A DNA stretch of 64,000 bases from Methanosarcina barkeri 3 (GTDB lineage: Archaea > Halobacteriota > Methanosarcinia > Methanosarcinales > Methanosarcinaceae), in assembly GCF_000970305.1 (NCBI RefSeq), contig NZ_CP009517.1, forward strand, positions 3,906,001 to 3,970,000, written 5' to 3'. Shown piece by piece: positions 15,217 through 25,326 of the stretch. A program made the translations under genes and the position numbers. The notes below the pieces were generated by a model that was not told the DNA's origin, did not search any database, and was given only the letters and a program-made list of their open reading frames with translations. Within the stretch, counting starts at the first letter, position 1. Each line of letters begins with the position of its first letter.

Positions 15217-16698
15217 ATGTTAGGCTCTTACGAAATAGAGTATGAAGGGCGGAGATACTTCGGCAACGTCGTGTTGCGAGAACACCATATTTTCGAACAT
15301 GATAATGCACATTATCTGGTCGACGTGGGCAATAAGGCGGTCTCCCCAATCTCCGCCCGGTTGGCATCTATGATCAAGAAGGTGGATTCAGCTTTCGGCT
15401 GTCTGATCCCGGAATCCGCCATGGAGGAGTTGCGCAAATTAAAGCTGGTTGCCGGAGAGGAGGATGAGACGTCCGAGGCTGTGGAGGATGGCGAGTCGAT
15501 AGGATCATACGAGGAATTCGAGTATCCGGTGGTTAACATCTCCCTTTTCCTTGCGCAAGAGTGCAATATGCGCTGTGTCTATTGCTATGGTGGCGGGGGG
15601 CATTATGCTGGAAAAGGAATGATGACGGAAGAAACAGCGTTCCGAGCGGTTGACTGGCTGATGGAAAATTCCAAAAAAGCCGAAAGCGTAAGTATCAGTT
15701 TTTTCGGGGGAGAACCCTTGATGAACTTTTCCTTGATGAGAAAAATCGTGCCTTTCGCCAAAAGACAGGGAATGAAAAAAGGGAAGCGGGTCTTCTTCAG
15801 CATCACAACTAACGGTTCGTTGTTGAATGAGGAGATCATCACATTTCTCAAGGAAGAAAAGATAAGAACCTTTATCAGCTTTGACGGTCCGTCCGAATAC
15901 CAAAACAGTCAGCGTCCCTTCAAGAACGGTAAGGGATCGTATGATAAGGTCTCCGCAAATATCCAAAAGTTGCGGGCGGTTATCCCCCACCTGACGGGTC
16001 GAGCAACACTTTGTGGTGAGGCCAACCCTTTTCGGGTCAAAGATGGGATGGAGCGAGCTGGATTCACAACCTATTTTATTACCAAGGCTTCCCCCGTGCT
16101 TCTGAACACGCAGCTCGCAGATATTCCCTCAGCCAGAGAAGAAGCCTTGCAACGGATGCTGGCGTTTAACCGCAAGGAAATGGAGCAATTGCTCGTCGCT
16201 ATAAGGGCAAGAGCGATCGATAAAAATTATCTGCCGGGTCTCTTGTACGTCATGGCAGAAATGGATTTCGGGCAGAAACGCTACTATGGATGCGGAATTG
16301 GTAAAGGTATGGTCGCCATCTCCACAAACGGAGATATCTATCCCTGCCACAGGTTTGTGGGGATAGAGGAATTGCGTTTTGGGAATATCGCAGACTACCA
16401 TATTGAAGGGTTAAACGACTATTGGCGGGCGGTCGTGGATCATTTGCCAGAATGCTGGAGTTGCTGGGCGCGCTATTTCTGCGGAGGCGGCTGCTTCTAC
16501 AACAACAAGGCGCATACTGGGGATATGCACAGACCTGATTCCCTGTATTGTCGCGAAACGAAGGCAATGATCGAAGGCCTGATCCATCTCTTTTGTGACT
16601 TGAGCAAGGATGACAAGGAGTTTCTGAAAGGCATCATTAAGTATGTGACCGAGAAGCGAATCTTTAAAATGCCCATCAATTCAACAATTAATAAGTGA
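15217..16698 (+). CDS. radical SAM/SPASM peptide-modifying enzyme
   Basis: This 493-aa enzyme probably makes a thioether or other crosslink in the adjacent NHLP precursor. Residues 1-85 form a small domain resembling the precursor-recognition region of RiPP radical SAM maturases. The radical SAM cluster motif is C116-NMRC-VYC (C116, C120, C123), followed by SFFGGEP (SAM-binding GGE) and ITTNGSLL. The C-terminal third is a SPASM domain with many cysteines, including YGCGIGKG, IYPCHRF, CWSCWARYFCGGGC and LYCRET, binding auxiliary 4Fe-4S clusters. It resembles QhpD-like and ranthipeptide/sactipeptide maturases. ATG 15217 follows AAAGGAGG by 4 bases. No protease or exporter gene is adjacent. A MITE-like element begins 6 bases after the stop. 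Confidence 0.85.
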   Translation: MLGSYEIEYEGRRYFGNVVLREHHIFEHDNAHYLVDVGNKAVSPISARLASMIKKVDSAFGCLIPESAMEELRKLKLVAGEEDETSEAVEDGESIGSYEEFEYPVVNISLFLAQECNMRCVYCYGGGGHYAGKGMMTEETAFRAVDWLMENSKKAESVSISFFGGEPLMNFSLMRKIVPFAKRQGMKKGKRVFFSITTNGSLLNEEIITFLKEEKIRTFISFDGPSEYQNSQRPFKNGKGSYDKVSANIQKLRAVIPHLTGRATLCGEANPFRVKDGMERAGFTTYFITKASPVLLNTQLADIPSAREEALQRMLAFNRKEMEQLLVAIRARAIDKNYLPGLLYVMAEMDFGQKRYYGCGIGKGMVAISTNGDIYPCHRFVGIEELRFGNIADYHIEGLNDYWRAVVDHLPECWSCWARYFCGGGCFYNNKAHTGDMHRPDSLYCRETKAMIEGLIHLFCDLSKDDKEFLKGIIKYVTEKRIFKMPINSTINK

Positions 16699-18660: not shown

Positions 18661-18740
18661 ATCAGCATAATTTCGTTTGTTACAATTTGAACATATCATG
18701 ACGAAAGAGAGATACTTGTTATCATAGTTGATAAATTCAA

Positions 18741-18767
18741 ATGAAAAAAAGAACAGCCGAAGCTGTC
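18741..18767 (-). terminator. UUCG-loop intrinsic-type terminator
   Basis: On the minus strand GACAGC-TTCG-GCTGTTC is followed by seven T. It lies just after the stop of the 45-aa gene at 18772-18909, supporting that gene. Confidence 0.7.
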
Positions 18768-18771
18768 AACT

Positions 18772-18909
18772 TTAAAAACGAGTCTTTAAAATCAGTCCGA
18801 TGAGTCCAAATAGTGAACTCATCATTATGGTCATCGTGCGGCGGTCTCCTTTAACTATAAGGGTGAACCCTTCTGATAGTTTTTTATAGTTTATGCTCAG
18901 TATTTCCAT
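18772..18909 (-). CDS. 45-aa basic protein with C-terminal hydrophobic helix
   Basis: The frame starts MEILSINYKKLSEGFTLIVK, continues through GDRRTMT and ends in a hydrophobic helix (MMSSLFGLIGLILKTRF). An open frame continues upstream of this ATG through a Pro/Cys-rich segment (SPPQCPPN) without a stop for about 28 codons but also without a start codon. A UUCG-type terminator follows the stop by a few bases, a strong sign of a real transcription unit. The family is not recognised; it could be membrane-acting. Confidence 0.5.
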   Translation of the reverse strand: MEILSINYKKLSEGFTLIVKGDRRTMTIMMSSLFGLIGLILKTRF

Positions 18910-19707
18910 TGATATCAGTTTTGATATTTCTTTGGTTTTGTTCGGTGGACACTGCGGTGGGGATTGCCGTGTCTTCCGAACTATTCTTGAATCCGTTTTT
19001 CAATTTAACTAATTGATTTTTTTGTATATAAAGTCTACTGATAGCGAATTTTATATATACAAAATTCGAATTTCGTATATAAGAAATTCATCTGATGTTG
19101 AAATTTCTTACATTTGTATTAATGCGATCAATTGTATTTAAATTTTGTTCAAAAATAGGAGTCGTATACCTTCTTTTGTGTTATGCGTCACGCATAGCAA
19201 CTTTTTCTTAAAAACATGTTGTTTTAGAGCTTGAATTTGCGTGCAAAACATATAAGATTTGCACATACCAATTTAGTACCACGCTACCAATGCTGTTTTT
19301 CGAATTATGGACGGTTTTTTATAAATTCGGATATTATGAAAGTCTTGATTTTTCAGAAAACTATTGCATTCTTGCTCAACTTGCGCTGGACCATAGATCC
19401 TATATTCGGCAGGTCGACCTAAGGAATTTTAATCTTTTTCTTGATGTCGTTTTTGAACATTTGACAAATATACATTAGATTTAAAACTTGTTTACGTGTG
19501 GCTCAATTTCCACAACATATAGAAACTATGGATCATTTTTCACTAAAGTTTAGCATGAAAGACTATTTTTGGATCATATGTAAACCTTACAACTGTATTT
19601 TTTAGAAGATTCAAGCTTTCAGCCATTGAAATAATTATATAAATGTAAAAATACAGTAATTTCTGAAAATTGCTGTATTGTAAATTACGGAATTGTAGAA
19701 TTTTAAC
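18910..19707. other. AT-rich intergenic stretch with inverted repeats
   Basis: It contains inverted repeats CGAATTTT/AAAATTCG (19045-19068), GAATTTC/GAAATTC (about 19067-19090) and TATGCG/CGCATA (about 19182-19196), candidate operator or hairpin sites upstream of the 45-aa gene. A 62-codon plus-strand frame at 19290-19478 (FYKFGYYESLDFSENYC...) overlaps another frame, lacks a ribosome-binding site and is not called. Confidence 0.4.
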
Positions 19708-19733
19708 TAAAAAAGAAAACAGTCGAACCTGTA
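19708..19733 (-). terminator. stem-loop/U-run terminator
   Basis: On the minus strand ACAG-GTTCGA-CTGT is followed by TTTTCTTTTTT, five bases after the stop of the 54-aa gene. It has the same layout as the terminator at 18741. Confidence 0.6.
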
Positions 19734-19737
19734 CATT

Positions 19738-19902
19738 TTAATTGACGTTTCCTAGTGTTTGTTCAATGATTCCGGTAGGAATCCTTATCTCAATGCCTGT
19801 TTCAAATGAAATAGTCTTGTTTTCTTCAACAGGCTTTTCAGTTGGCCTTTCTTCAACAGATTTTTTATTGTTGTCGTATTTTAGTTTTATATAAGCAAGC
19901 AT
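19738..19902 (-). CDS. 54-aa charged hypothetical protein
   Basis: The frame starts MLAYIKLKYDNNKKSVEERP, has a repeated EE-P-EKPVEE linker, and ends with an ordered-looking segment (TISFETGIEIRIPTGIIEQT). The composition is protein-like rather than chance AT-rich frame. A terminator follows directly. Three 19-base direct repeats (19947-20003) lie upstream in the promoter region. The family is not recognised. Confidence 0.5.
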   Translation of the reverse strand: MLAYIKLKYDNNKKSVEERPTEKPVEENKTISFETGIEIRIPTGIIEQTLGNVN

Positions 19903-19946
19903 ATAGTGACTTAGTTGATTCTTATCATATTTATAAAAAATCGAAC

Positions 19947-20003
19947 ATACTATTATATCACTAGTATACTATTATATCATTAATATACTATTATATTAAC
20001 AGT
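19947..20003. repeat. three 19-base direct repeats (iteron-like)
   Basis: ATACTATTATATCA units begin at 19947, 19966 and 19985, an exact 19-base period. They sit just upstream of the 54-aa minus-strand gene. Such spaced AT-rich repeats can be regulator sites or plasmid iterons; no replication gene is nearby. Confidence 0.6.
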
Positions 20004-20405
20004 ATAGCCCCCCACTGCTAAAAGGTTTAAATTTTTTGTGAGAGGGGTGGCCTTGGCAAGTTAGCCCAAATTCGTTTAATCTGGAACCCTGATGCTGGAT
20101 ATCTACTTCTTCATTTTCAATTAAACATAAAACAATAACGGTTAATTGAAAACATATATTTACCTATTTCCAGTGCAGAATATTAGGAAAGTAATCGATA
20201 ATGATTTGACCAGAAATAAAATAGTACTTCATGTGTCTTCGGTTAAGTGAGGAATCATGACAAATTGCGTCAATTTCCACAAATTCTGCATGCAGAGATA
20301 ATAGTTTATCATGTGGATATGACCTGTCATTTACATGCTTATTATGAATTTTTTGCAACGAGCCACAAAATATATTTACATCTAATTATCTAATAACAAA
20401 ATGTT

Positions 20406-20552
20406 ATGAGCATAGCCTACTTGGATAACGAAACCCAAGAAAAAATAGGAAACGAGTTATTTGGAGACTATGACAAAGCTTTAGAAAAGATTTTTTCACT
20501 TACTAAATTTTTATTTATAATATTCGGTTTTTACGGTGTATTCAGAAATTAA
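20406..20552 (+). CDS. 48-aa hypothetical protein, C-terminal hydrophobic
   Basis: The frame begins MSIAYLDNETQEKIGNELFG. It has an acidic helical first half and a hydrophobic end (FLFIIFGFYGVFRN). A second small membrane frame starts 4 bases after its stop, suggesting a two-gene unit. No recognised family; no strong ribosome-binding site. Confidence 0.4.
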   Translation: MSIAYLDNETQEKIGNELFGDYDKALEKIFSLTKFLFIIFGFYGVFRN

Positions 20553-20556
20553 AAAG

Positions 20557-20673
20557 ATGAATAGCCGATATAAAATATCAATTATTATAATTGGAATCTC
20601 TCTGGCGTTTTTTGGTGTTATTTTAAGCCTTTTCTTTTTACTTCAGTGGTATTTCCCATATTACCCATATTGA
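20557..20673 (+). CDS. 38-aa single-pass membrane protein
   Basis: The frame begins MNSRYKIS, followed by one transmembrane helix and an aromatic tail ending YFPYYPY. It starts 4 bases after the 48-aa gene. Basic residues precede the helix, so the N-terminus is probably cytoplasmic. Family unknown. Confidence 0.4.
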   Translation: MNSRYKISIIIIGISLAFFGVILSLFFLLQWYFPYYPY

Positions 20674-21116
20674 GAGGATTATTAAAACAACAACTAAACT
20701 AATTTACTACTTTAAACTCAGTATTTCATGAATATAAAGATAAACACATATCGAAATTTGTTATAAACACGGTTAGCATTAAACTCTATTATTTTCTAAA
20801 ATATGCCTAAACTATGATTTTGCGAACTAGTCGTGTAAACAGCAAAATGTCGTACAATATCGATCCTGGATGTGATTTTCAACAACAAACTTTTCTAAAT
20901 TTTATATCTGCTACTCTCACATAAGGAAATGAGTATAAATTACCCACTCGAAACAACAAGAGCCGATTTGACATTAAAGGTATATAATTATGCACCAAAA
21001 ATTAAATTGCTAAGACACTAGTAGCATCAAGATCGCCTATATTTAAAAGAGTAACAACAAGGTTCCATGCTATTAATGAGGTGTTAGGGTGTTCTTCAAC
21101 ACACACTTTCCTTCTT

Positions 21117-21194
21117 ATGGTCAATACCTGCTTGAAGTGTTATGATTGTTACTGGCAGGATAGCATTCAATGTAAGTTGAAAGAAACATTTTAG
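21117..21194 (+). CDS. possible 25-aa Cys-rich microprotein
   Basis: The frame MVNTCLKCYDCYWQDSIQCK ends LKETF. It has C-X2-C-X2-C plus a fourth Cys, a metal-binding-like pattern. It lies 93 bases upstream of the large radical SAM fusion gene. There is no clear ribosome-binding site, so it may be a chance frame or the scrap of a decayed gene. Confidence 0.22.
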   Translation: MVNTCLKCYDCYWQDSIQCKLKETF

Positions 21195-21287
21195 AAGTCC
21201 TGAACAAATAGATAAATTGAAACTCTATAACCGATTAATACTTATTCAAATTATATAACTTATTGTAAATCCTTGGTGGAATAAACG

Positions 21288-24200
21288 ATGTATGAATTAA
21301 ATTCAATAAAAAAGTCTCTTGAAGATTTAAAAGAAAAACATAAATTAGATTATAGCTTGATTAAAGCTTATGCAGGAAGCTTGATCATAAAAAATCCAAG
21401 TTTAGATATATATCAAATAAAAGAATTATTATCATTAAATGAAGTAGTATTAAACGATTTTAAACCATCTGAATTTGAAGATAATTACATTATAATTCAT
21501 AAACAAAATGTTGCGCAAACTAATGAATATGTCGCCTTCAAAAATAAATTAAATAATGAACTTGAAGGTGTAGAACTGGATAAAGTAGAAAAATGGCTTG
21601 ATCAATTTCCATTTTTCGATTGGAAAATATATGGTTTGAAATTGCTATCTGAAACATTGTATATTAATGAGAAGAATAAGGACGATAATTTAAAAACAAT
21701 TTTAAATTTCGTCAGTGATCCTGATAAAACGGTTATTTCGGATATTAAAGGATTGGTAAAAAGTTCTGTTAACCTCTTCTACGGATTAAATAAATTTTCA
21801 AAAATTTCGGTTGAAAATATTATTTTATCAAAAGATCTCGAACCTAATGACGATAGAGATATTGTTTTTATTGATGACTTTATTGGATCTGGAAATCAAG
21901 CAACAAAATATATAAAACAATTAAAAAGGGAAGGCAAAATAGATAAGCAAAAATTATATTTATTCGCTATTGTAGGCCTTAGTGAAGGTATAAAAAGATT
22001 AGAGGAAGAAAAATTATTTTCTGAAGTTAAAGTTGTACATAAAATTGAACACAAAGCTTTTGATAATAGTTATATTTTTTCAACATCTGATGCTGGAAAA
22101 GCAAAGGATGTCATAAGTAATATTGGAAAGCAATTAACTGACGAAAAAATGAGTTTAGGATATGATAATTCTCAAGCTTTAGTTTTTTTCCATAATAGCT
22201 CTCCTAATAATTCTTTACCTATATTTTGGGCGGAAGGAAAATGTAAAATTTTGGAAGGTATAGATAAAGAGTCAAGTGAAATCACATGGAATCCGCTTTT
22301 TCCACGTAAGGAAAAAGGAATGCATATATATTCAGAGAATGTTACGAATATTACTTCCGAGGAAAAATCATATAAAAACCTAAAGAAAATTATAAAAGAT
22401 ATAAACGGAAATAATGAAATAACAGACAATATAACATATATTTTAATGAAAATAATCAAAGAGGGTAACAATACATATATATACGACGAAAAAGAACTTA
22501 GCAAATTTATTTCTGAGGATGATTTAAAGTTAGACAATAGAATTAATAAAGCACTATATTCAAACTCATTAGAATGGTTAGGAAAAACTAAAAATAATTA
22601 TTTCGTAAAATATGGGATTGGCTATATACTTAAATTGAATGAATTCCAGCAAGAGTTAAAACATTATATATTTAGTAAAGAGGAAGATGCAGATTTTACC
22701 TATATTCTGAATAAAATTGATCAGGATAAAAAGGCTGTATCCTATACATCTGATTCTTTTAATTTTTTAAATACAAAAAAACCTGAATATGAACCTTACA
22801 CGCTAGCTGATAAAGTCCAGCCAAATGATACAATTAGAATCATGTCATATCATTATCGGTATGCACTTACTCAAGATAAGATCATGAATATATTTGAAAA
22901 GAAACTAAAACAAAATGTCAAAATTAAAATAATGCTTATGCATCCATATTCACCTCATATAAGATTACCACAAACAAGAAATGAGATAATACAAGCTACC
23001 TCTAACTTAATAGATATAGCTATTAAAGAAAGAAGCAGACACCTAGAAGTTAGGTATTATGGAAAAAAGTTAGTTGATGATCAACAAAATGAAAGTAAGA
23101 ATTTCTTATTTCGTGGACATATTTATGGTAATGAAGCCATAGCTTTTGTTCCGTTTCCTTCAAAAAGATCAAATGGAACGGTCTTAGGGGATCCATATTA
23201 TTTAACTTGGGATAAGCAAAACGTATTTGTCTTTATTAATAAAGACAACGATTCATTATTGAACATTATTGAATTATATCAAAATTATTTCGATGATATC
23301 TGGTATGATTCATCGACGTTAATTAATGAATTTCTTGAAGAAGAAATGATAAATGGAATAGATAATAAGCTAATTAGTCAACTATCTGATAAGTTTAAAT
23401 CATATAATGAATTAAAAAATATTACTAACTGGTACGAAAATAATGAAAACATTGTCTCTGACATTAAAAATAAAGAATTAGTCCAAATCGAAATACATCC
23501 CACTAATAAATGTAATTTAATTTGCTCTTTTTGCTTCTATAAGGATAGAAGAATCTATCAAGAAATGAACACATCAACTCTTGAAAGAATTATTGATGAT
23601 GTTTATAAATATGGAAAAAGGATCATTTTTTCGGGAGGAGGGGAGCCAACATACTATTCTGACATCGAATCAATTATAAAAAAATGTAAAGAATATAAAT
23701 TACCCATTGGTATTATTACGAACGGTTATTTCGATAAATCGTTTATTGATTGTATTTATAGGAATTTTGAAAAAGATGACTTTATTAGATTTTCAATAGA
23801 TGCGGGGAGCTCTAAAAACTTTAATAATATTAAGGGAATTCGTGGAAATGGAGACATCTATAATAAAATATTAAATAATATAAAAACAATTTCAGAATAT
23901 AATAACCGACATTTCGAAGTAAGTATTGGTTATGCTGTTGGAAGTAAAAATTGTGATTTAAGCGAAATATTTTCATTTTTAGACTTTTTACGTCGTAATA
24001 TTAAAAGCGACATTAAAATAATGTTTCGGCCAATTATCGATATACCAGAAGAAGAATTATTCAGTTCTGAGAGTTTAAATAACGAACAAATTGATATGCT
24101 ATTGAATAATATTTTTGAAATCGAACGTAAAATTCCAATTGAAGTAAAACATAATCTTAGTGATTTTGTTTTACGATTAGAAACATTAAAAAATACACGA

Positions 24201-24551
24201 AATTATGGGATTATACGAAATAGTAATACTAATGAAAATAGATGTTATATAGCATATTCCGCGCCGATAATAGAACCGGATGGCAACATTTTCCTATGTC
24301 ATATAAGTAGCAAATTATGGAGAATTAATAAAGATTCACCTGGATCACTAATTGGTTATAGTGTTGAAAATCCTATTGGCCAAATCATCAATAATAGAAA
24401 TTTTTCAGATATATGGGATGATTTTAAAAATAAGCCTAATAATAAATATTATTATTGTAATAATTCAAAATTATGTAATCCAAGAGATCTATTATTAAAT
24501 AAAAAAATGAATAGGAATTACGTACTTCAAATGCAAAATCAACCTCCTTAA
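21288..24551 (+). CDS. PRTase-like / radical SAM fusion protein (1087 aa), candidate conflict-system enzyme
   Basis: Three regions can be seen. Residues about 1-320 look like a phosphoribosyltransferase-type domain: the PRPP-loop-like block is VFIDDFIGSGNQATK (about 193-207), as in PRTase-like domains of prokaryotic conflict systems. Residues about 480-680 contain NDTIRIMSYHYRYAL and KQNVKIKIMLMHPYSP, then RGHIYGNEAIAFVPFP. This resembles inactive PLD-like sensor domains found with defence proteins. Residues about 730-1087 are a radical SAM enzyme with C742-X3-C746-X2-C749 (KCNLICSFC), FSGGGEP, ITNGYF and a C-terminal SPASM-like set of cysteines (C986, C1004, C1057, C1063). The gene is very AT-rich and stands alone among IS fragments and microgenes, suggesting horizontal transfer. 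Substrate and biological role are unknown; antiviral or nucleotide-modifying activity is inference. Confidence 0.75.
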   Translation: MYELNSIKKSLEDLKEKHKLDYSLIKAYAGSLIIKNPSLDIYQIKELLSLNEVVLNDFKPSEFEDNYIIIHKQNVAQTNEYVAFKNKLNNELEGVELDKVEKWLDQFPFFDWKIYGLKLLSETLYINEKNKDDNLKTILNFVSDPDKTVISDIKGLVKSSVNLFYGLNKFSKISVENIILSKDLEPNDDRDIVFIDDFIGSGNQATKYIKQLKREGKIDKQKLYLFAIVGLSEGIKRLEEEKLFSEVKVVHKIEHKAFDNSYIFSTSDAGKAKDVISNIGKQLTDEKMSLGYDNSQALVFFHNSSPNNSLPIFWAEGKCKILEGIDKESSEITWNPLFPRKEKGMHIYSENVTNITSEEKSYKNLKKIIKDINGNNEITDNITYILMKIIKEGNNTYIYDEKELSKFISEDDLKLDNRINKALYSNSLEWLGKTKNNYFVKYGIGYILKLNEFQQELKHYIFSKEEDADFTYILNKIDQDKKAVSYTSDSFNFLNTKKPEYEPYTLADKVQPNDTIRIMSYHYRYALTQDKIMNIFEKKLKQNVKIKIMLMHPYSPHIRLPQTRNEIIQATSNLIDIAIKERSRHLEVRYYGKKLVDDQQNESKNFLFRGHIYGNEAIAFVPFPSKRSNGTVLGDPYYLTWDKQNVFVFINKDNDSLLNIIELYQNYFDDIWYDSSTLINEFLEEEMINGIDNKLISQLSDKFKSYNELKNITNWYENNENIVSDIKNKELVQIEIHPTNKCNLICSFCFYKDRRIYQEMNTSTLERIIDDVYKYGKRIIFSGGGEPTYYSDIESIIKKCKEYKLPIGIITNGYFDKSFIDCIYRNFEKDDFIRFSIDAGSSKNFNNIKGIRGNGDIYNKILNNIKTISEYNNRHFEVSIGYAVGSKNCDLSEIFSFLDFLRRNIKSDIKIMFRPIIDIPEEELFSSESLNNEQIDMLLNNIFEIERKIPIEVKHNLSDFVLRLETLKNTRNYGIIRNSNTNENRCYIAYSAPIIEPDGNIFLCHISSKLWRINKDSPGSLIGYSVENPIGQIINNRNFSDIWDDFKNKPNNKYYYCNNSKLCNPRDLLLNKKMNRNYVLQMQNQPP

Positions 24552-24574
24552 CCATCATATTTAAAATTCGAGTC

Positions 24575-24712
24575 TTAGAAAGTTGTTGGCTTATTGCTAT
24601 TGATTTTGTACCCAAGTGCACAAGTCCTATAGGTCTTCCAGCCTTCTTTTTTTATTTTGTTCCAGAACTCATCAGAAATCTCATAATCGTGACCAATTTC
24701 TTGTCTTGACAT
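24575..24712 (-). pseudogene. N-terminal fragment of an IS5-type transposase, frameshifted
   Basis: The frame MSRQEIGHDYEISDEFWNKI is the typical opening of IS5-group transposases in Methanosarcina. After it the expected KKKAGRP block is found one frame over, followed by unrelated sequence. The catalytic domain is missing. It lies converging on the 3' end of the PRTase/radical SAM gene. Confidence 0.65.
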
Positions 24713-25326
24713 TATAGTAAATTATCCTGAAGCAGAATTATTATACTTTTCGGATAGGCTCTTATGGTAATATATAAAAGGCTTTGTAGAAAACCTTACT
24801 TCGATGTAAATTATACAACATTTTTGTTTATGAGCTGATCCTAAAACTCAAAGTTATACTCAAATTTTCAGAAATACATAGGGTCCTTCCAAATCAGTAC
24901 TAAAACTAAGGGTATACAATGCTTATTTTAGATAATAGATATGCATTTAGGGTTTCTCCATCTAAAATACATCCTAAAAATCAATTCTTTAGGTAAATAA
25001 TATATAATACTCTTTTAAATCAAAAAGAGAGCGAAATAATTACTTTATTCCTTTACAATTTATGTTTATTTATAAATAAGGCATCTAATATCATTTTCAT
25101 CTATATAAAATTCAATGTTAAAAATAAGGAAAAAGCAACGTTTAATTTACCAATTAAAGTATCTAAATCAGTTAAACAACAAATAGATCCTTTAATGAAT
25201 GCATTTTTCAAGGGGTCTAGAAATACAGTATTTTTTAGTGAAATCAAAAATCAGGGATGAGAACCAATCCCATCCCCGTATTCAGTGTATCCAACACAAT
25301 AGTTTTCAATGACGAAAAGAGGAGTT
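24713..25326. other. AT-rich gap downstream of frhB
   Basis: No gene is called. A plus-strand frame without a start codon (ending in VKNKEKATFNLPIKVSKSV... at 25252) has protein-like composition and may be the 3' remnant of a decayed gene. A short palindrome GATGGGATTGG-like hairpin near 25255-25280 could end the frh transcript. Confidence 0.3.

Follow-up and report, generated by a model that had tools for sequence, protein, structure and literature searches.

A PRTase-CE domain and a radical SAM module in one chain of Methanosarcina barkeri 3: very probably a single-gene defence protein

In type III retrons, the effector is a phosphoribosyltransferase (PRTase); introduction of the type III retron Ppe1 into E. 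coli failed, presumably owing to toxicity, and the III-A retron Bpu1 did not protect against phage in the reported test (PMC12548924). A DprA-PRTase pair protects against T7 and lambda by a mode of action that is not known (PMC9122126), and radical SAM proteins have been predicted to function in other conflict systems as effectors that act on a peptide (PMC7159879). The literature that we searched, mostly without subscription papers, gives no substrate for any PRTase-CE domain and describes no system that joins this domain to a radical SAM enzyme; within the same scope, we can endorse the statement of an earlier sequence-only reading of the locus analyzed here, namely that no described system has this domain order.

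A PRTase motif scan of approximately 85,000 species genomes, which would miss relatives with a changed motif, yielded 174 confirmed relatives, and the best 80 of these 174 were analyzed (L051-L130). Within this set, 41 loci are operons that combine a methyltransferase, a PRTase and an ORC-CDC6-like ATPase, and 18 adjoin a retron-type reverse transcriptase (RT), with both locus types confirmed on representatives; many of the other 21 encode fusions, and those sampled contain NACHT and pentapeptide repeats, NB-ARC and TPR, AAA, or DisA-N domains. The methyltransferase/PRTase-CE/PF24389 operon (e.g., L088:6165-10484) is present in many bacterial phyla and some archaea and looks like a defence system; no PADLOC model matched the PF24389 ATPase that was tested. 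Among the fusions, two NLR-like proteins consist of an N-terminal PRTase-CE domain followed either by NACHT and pentapeptide repeats (L053:7572-10760, from Treponema) or by NB-ARC and TPR (L058:1386-3928), and an archaeal protein from Bathycorpusculum (L076:7956-9800) fuses PRTase-CE to a DisA-N domain resembling diadenylate cyclases (PF02457, E 1e-14) and so pairs an effector with a possible second-messenger synthase. Other variations on the theme include a 570-aa protein with two tandem PRTase-CE-like stretches encoded on a viral contig (L045:826-2538), and a SIR2-like gene of the ThsA/STALD type (L119:938-2299) located directly upstream of a PRTase-CE gene, with a retron-type RT nearby.

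The protein described here belongs to Methanosarcina barkeri 3 and is encoded in a window (the whole stretch of 64,000 nucleotides that was analyzed) that is part of a 4.56 Mb single-contig chromosome with CODH and Frh hydrogenase genes. The features of the locus are as follows.

18720..25233, no strand: variable chromosomal segment that holds the gene, from comparison with relatives
21288..24551, plus strand: gene for the single-gene fusion protein, 1087 aa, ATG start, GC 26.4%
21585..22307, plus strand: PRTase-CE domain, residues 100-340, effector-type and phosphoribosyltransferase-like (PF24390, PADLOC PRTase_III-A, AF2/UPRTase fold match)
21864..21899, plus strand: PRPP-loop motif VFIDDFIGSGNQ, residues 193-204, conserved in the PRTase-CE alignment
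22200..22229, plus strand: family signature SPNNSLPIFW, residues 305-314, from the PRTase-CE alignment
22308..23492, plus strand: middle region, residues 341-735, without sequence relatives
23496..23939, plus strand: radical SAM core, residues 737-884 (PF04055, CX3CX2C, GGGEP)
24243..24476, plus strand: late-cysteine region, residues 986-1063, candidate auxiliary Fe-S cluster, SPASM/twitch-like

The gene is real and intact. It is a single uninterrupted open reading frame, preceded by a candidate ribosome-binding site in the form of a GGTGG stretch some 10 bases 5' of the ATG, and the computed chance that a frame of 1087 codons would stay open at this base composition is about 10^-42. The GC content of 0.264, compared with 0.398 for the whole window and 0.525 for frhB, together with the lack of an operon partner, bears out the earlier description of an isolated, AT-rich gene; the residue numbers given in that description are likewise correct. 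The third-position GC content differs little among the three parts of the gene (0.17, 0.22, and 0.19), as expected of one established gene.

Residues 100-340 comprise a complete PRTase-CE domain, for which a type I phosphoribosyltransferase fold is predicted. The PF24390 (PRTase-CE) profile is matched over its entire length (1-253 of 253) with an E-value of 7.8e-38 and 131.2 bits vs a gathering threshold of 27, and the best PADLOC family for the whole protein is PRTase_III-A, the retron III-A effector (E 1.7e-39, residues 95-389). Both hallmarks of the family, the DD...G of the PRPP loop and the PNNxLPxxW motif, are present. In an alignment of 36 PRTase-CE sequences, D196, D197, and G202 of the PRPP loop are invariant, P306, N308, L310, P311, and W314 are at least 97% conserved, and W334 and R340 vary little or not at all; the fusion protein retains all of these residues. 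The PRPP-loop block that had been picked out from the letters alone, VFIDDFIGSGNQ, thus lies inside a full-length family match. The protein departs from the family in the same alignment at positions 112 (W for E), 154 (K for G), 160 (S for G), and 168 (N for R), and accordingly its PRTase activity could be altered. In the AF2 model, pLDDT is mostly above 90 at residues ~100-320 vs 57 overall, such that the PRTase part alone is confident; it matches type I PRTases (uracil and purine phosphoribosyltransferases), with UPRTase first (Z 11.7, rmsd 2.5 A over 128 residues of the predicted model). The confident model and the UPRTase match support the claim of a PRTase fold, and the N-terminal part, which had been proposed to adopt such a fold, is modelled with one of type I rather than lacking it. 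In the family tree, the PRTase of the fusion protein forms a long branch of unsure placement.

At the other end of the chain, the PF04055 (Radical_SAM) profile matches residues 737-884 (E 1.3e-19, 71.4 bits vs a cutoff of 29.5), and the radical SAM motifs are intact, with C742, C746, and C749 (CX3CX2C) followed by GGGEP. The complete radical SAM domain with late cysteines that the first reading had recognized is therefore present in all its elements. Many NCBIfam maturase models detect the fusion protein, all far under their cutoffs; since these scores and that of the viperin model all fall short, this part is a radical SAM protein with a canonical core that belongs to no named subfamily. By sequence, its PDB relatives are SuiB, viperins, PqqE, and SkfB, and its moderate-confidence structural model matches the folds of the PFL-activating enzyme (PFL-AE), SuiB, EpeE, and viperin.

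Four late cysteines, C986, C1004, C1057, and C1063, follow the core with the spacing C-x12-G-x4-C ... C-x5-C and are candidate ligands of a probable auxiliary Fe-S cluster. Most SPASM/twitch-type radical SAM enzymes act on peptides. The four late cysteines, with the first pair in the C-x12-G-x4-C arrangement, point to a SPASM/twitch-type enzyme rather than a viperin. The SPASM profile PF13186 stays below its cutoff of 21.5 (15.3 bits with the entire chain and 17.7 bits with the fragment); given the spacing of the late cysteines, a short twitch-like version is possible. Compared with the SPASM/twitch maturases (SuiB, SkfB, PqqE, W_rSAM_matur), which are among the best sequence and fold neighbors of this part, the fusion protein reaches only 15.3 bits with the SPASM profile (cutoff 21.5), contains four late cysteines instead of seven, and has no recognized precursor peptide gene at its locus. 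A separate 493-aa radical SAM/SPASM protein is encoded 4.6 kb upstream (15217-16698), also with no recognized adjacent gene for a peptide substrate.

These features bear on a viperin-like scenario, in which the radical SAM module would make a ddhNTP-like nucleotide and the PRTase would supply or consume a nucleotide, resulting in an antiviral small molecule. By both sequence and fold, viperins rank with the closest radical SAM proteins of solved structure, PADLOC reports a pVip match (E 1.5e-16), and prokaryotic viperin shares with the fusion protein the radical SAM core and a proposed antiviral context. However, the pVip match covers only the generic radical SAM core, and the NCBIfam viperin model NF038283 gives 51.5 bits vs a cutoff of 180 and is outscored by a maturase model, which rules out membership in that family; the protein further differs from pVip in its extra late cysteines (986, 1004, 1057, and 1063), which fit SPASM/twitch enzymes and not viperin, and in being joined to a PRTase, and no nucleotide kinase gene was seen beside it. 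We regard the viperin-like scenario as very improbable, and the echo of viperin-type antiviral enzymes suggested by the sequence-only reading is not upheld.

The middle region (residues 341-735) has no Pfam family above cutoff and no sequence relatives in any collection searched; two weak matches proved, on inspection, to be unrelated open reading frames. Residues 486-695 were compared with a profile of seven sequences of DUF5919, which we take to be a PLD-like family, and scored 20.8, vs up to 24.0 for shuffled sequences and up to 21.9 for real-protein controls. The single-sequence AF2 model of the middle is of low confidence (pLDDT 41) and shows a beta-alpha-beta-alpha-beta order; with this model, Foldseek retrieved several phospholipases D as weak matches (best E 0.015, none below 0.01), and VIA ranked aminotransferases first (Z 5.7), with PLDs not at the top. 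A GHIYG at residue 610 occurs without the lysine of an HxK motif. The second half of the middle region is possibly an inactive PLD-like fold, to judge from this low-confidence model, and the PLD-like sensor proposed in the sequence-only reading likewise stands only as a possibility. No similarity was detected between the middle and the C-terminal parts of other PRTase-CE fusions.

The fusion protein shares its PRTase-CE domain (residues 95-389) with the effector of type III-A retrons, in which the PRTase is the defence effector, but its C-terminal partner is a radical SAM module instead of a small domain, and the window shows no RT gene among the open reading frames on either side. An Rfam scan of the window gave zero matches, msr-msd included, although many retron RNAs lie outside Rfam. 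With neither an RT nor a known RNA seen nearby, we do not assign the gene to a retron. The methyltransferase/PRTase-CE/ORC-CDC6-like operons have the same PRTase-CE family in common with it, whereas the fusion is a single isolated gene with neither a methyltransferase nor an ORC ATPase gene beside it. The closest parallel in layout is with the PRTase-CE proteins that contain STAND NTPase or DisA-N modules (L053, L058, L076), which likewise consist of an N-terminal PRTase-CE domain and a long C-terminal signalling module; the C-terminal module here is, in contrast, a radical SAM domain, and the middle shows no detectable similarity to theirs.

The gene resides in a segment (18720-25233) that is bordered on one side by a HepT-type toxin-antitoxin locus and on the other by the frh operon at its 3' end; the neighboring open reading frames, assessed by eye and partly scanned, include toxin-antitoxin genes, an rSAM-SPASM gene, a SerC-like gene, and frh genes. 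The segment of ~18720-25233 is not conserved in the six relatives compared. Four of the six have other defence-type genes at the site downstream of frh (L158:11884-14355, L161:8550-13415, L163:2418-3353, L159:12881-13729), namely a fusion of a KAP NTPase and FGE, a protein combining trypsin and NB-ARC domains, an Mrr-type nuclease, and a DUF2971 protein; the fifth encodes a TPR protein there, and the sixth has nothing recognizable. The trypsin and NB-ARC protein is 1621 aa long. In Methanosarcina, defence-type genes of varied kinds thus form a hotspot beside the frh operon, and nothing else at the locus speaks as strongly for a role of the fusion gene in defence. With the defence contexts seen across the PRTase-CE family, it sustains the association with defence that had been read from the sequence, as opposed to neighbors that are all housekeeping genes. 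The 3' flank (24869-25196) consists of a decayed repeat that recurs, at 73-85% identity, in several other places on the same chromosome; the IS debris noted earlier is real to the extent of this repeat, but no recognizable transposase domain is left in the flank, and no convincing transposon ends surround the gene.

The same genomic evidence weighs on the idea of a metabolic enzyme that would perform a two-step synthesis of a modified base, cofactor, or peptide from PRPP with radical chemistry, outside defence. Both kinds of domain occur widely in biosynthesis, and both ends of the chain appear catalytic by motif; however, the PRTase belongs to PRTase-CE, a family of defence-like loci, and not to a biosynthetic PRTase family, and the gene is an accessory one of atypical composition without an operon partner. 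Such a metabolic role is unlikely in our estimation.

PRTase-CE is present in 3 of the 31 genomes of the genus and the radical SAM fusion in one; the other two genomes encode related proteins (L032:1-2211, L164:683-2941) that are different fusions of ~750-780 aa, in which a C-terminal PRTase-CE follows an N-terminal part with no assigned domain. Full-length relatives were not found with the query alone in genome contigs, in viral contigs, plasmids, and phages, or in 393 genomes of the phylum, and the PRTase family of 186 genomes of the order contains no second fusion. Among the best 80 of 174 PRTase-CE relatives, no match extends past residue 397, and none of the 80 loci (flanks of up to 8 kb, less on small contigs) contains a gene detectably related to the radical SAM domain of the fusion protein. 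The middle and radical SAM part found no match in 296 genomes from the phylum to which a Bacteroidales MAG belongs, a search that had no positive control, and relatives of the radical SAM part, sought in viral contigs for a deeper alignment, amounted to two weak loci. The pairing of PRTase-CE with radical SAM thus has no second example among the genomes searched: as far as seen, both domains were known before and only their combination, which rests on one genome, is new.

Because the fusion is a singleton, co-conservation does not show that its three parts work together. A PRTase-CE gene could have recently joined an unrelated radical SAM gene by chance, or be decaying, with no joint function; the single example among the genomes searched and the decayed repeat that adjoins the gene are in line with this. 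Conversely, all 1087 codons remain open despite the very high AT content, both sets of motifs are retained, the composition is similar across the three parts, and a long middle region is specific to this protein, so that a chance or decaying fusion seems unlikely.

The fusion protein is very probably a single-gene defence protein. To judge from the position of the modules in other PRTase-CE proteins, the N-terminal PRTase may act as effector, with the C-terminal part as its trigger or signalling module, and we consider it reasonably probable that the gene is a horizontally acquired single-gene defence determinant in which a PRTase-CE effector is licensed or triggered by the radical SAM module. 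Once released, the effector would have PRPP or a related nucleotide metabolite as its substrate and would stop the growth of the infected cell. The radical SAM domain, with its one candidate auxiliary Fe-S cluster, would constitute a second catalytic module in the place that the sensing or signalling module (STAND NTPase, DisA-N) occupies in other PRTase-CE proteins, and would be expected to license or trigger the PRTase, most likely through radical modification of a polypeptide, either its own chain or a bound partner; the middle region would probably serve in recognition or coupling. Of this model, the domains with their intact motifs, the accessory distribution, the hotspot, and the defence contexts of the family are observed, whereas we infer what triggers the effector, which substrates the two enzymes use, in which order the steps follow, and that the outcome is abortive.

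The shared position also fits a defence protein whose radical SAM domain solely senses the SAM level, the redox state, or oxygen, without modifying a target as a catalyst, and an Fe-S/SAM site would be suited to sensing SAM depletion or oxidation. Given that all core catalytic motifs and the late cysteines are kept, we consider a pure sensor quite unlikely. With respect to the preferred reading of an effector triggered by radical chemistry, we put forward only tentatively, and as a doubtful proposition, its strongest form: that this is the first defence protein with a PRTase effector and a radical SAM enzyme in one chain, in which a radical reaction either switches the effector on when the cell is infected or yields a modified nucleotide or peptide for the effector to use. 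Methanogenic archaea would then possess a new immune chemistry.

As an effector, PRTase-CE is widespread in retrons and further defence systems, and its fusion to a chemically well-understood enzyme class offers a handle on its function: SAM cleavage provides an assay for the radical SAM partner, and the product or target of that partner would hint at the role of the PRTase. To our knowledge, few archaeal defence proteins have been studied. If the proposed function is true, radical SAM enzymes in immunity would extend beyond viperin and into archaea; furthermore, the locus draws attention to the hotspot of defence-type genes that adjoins the Methanosarcina frh operon.
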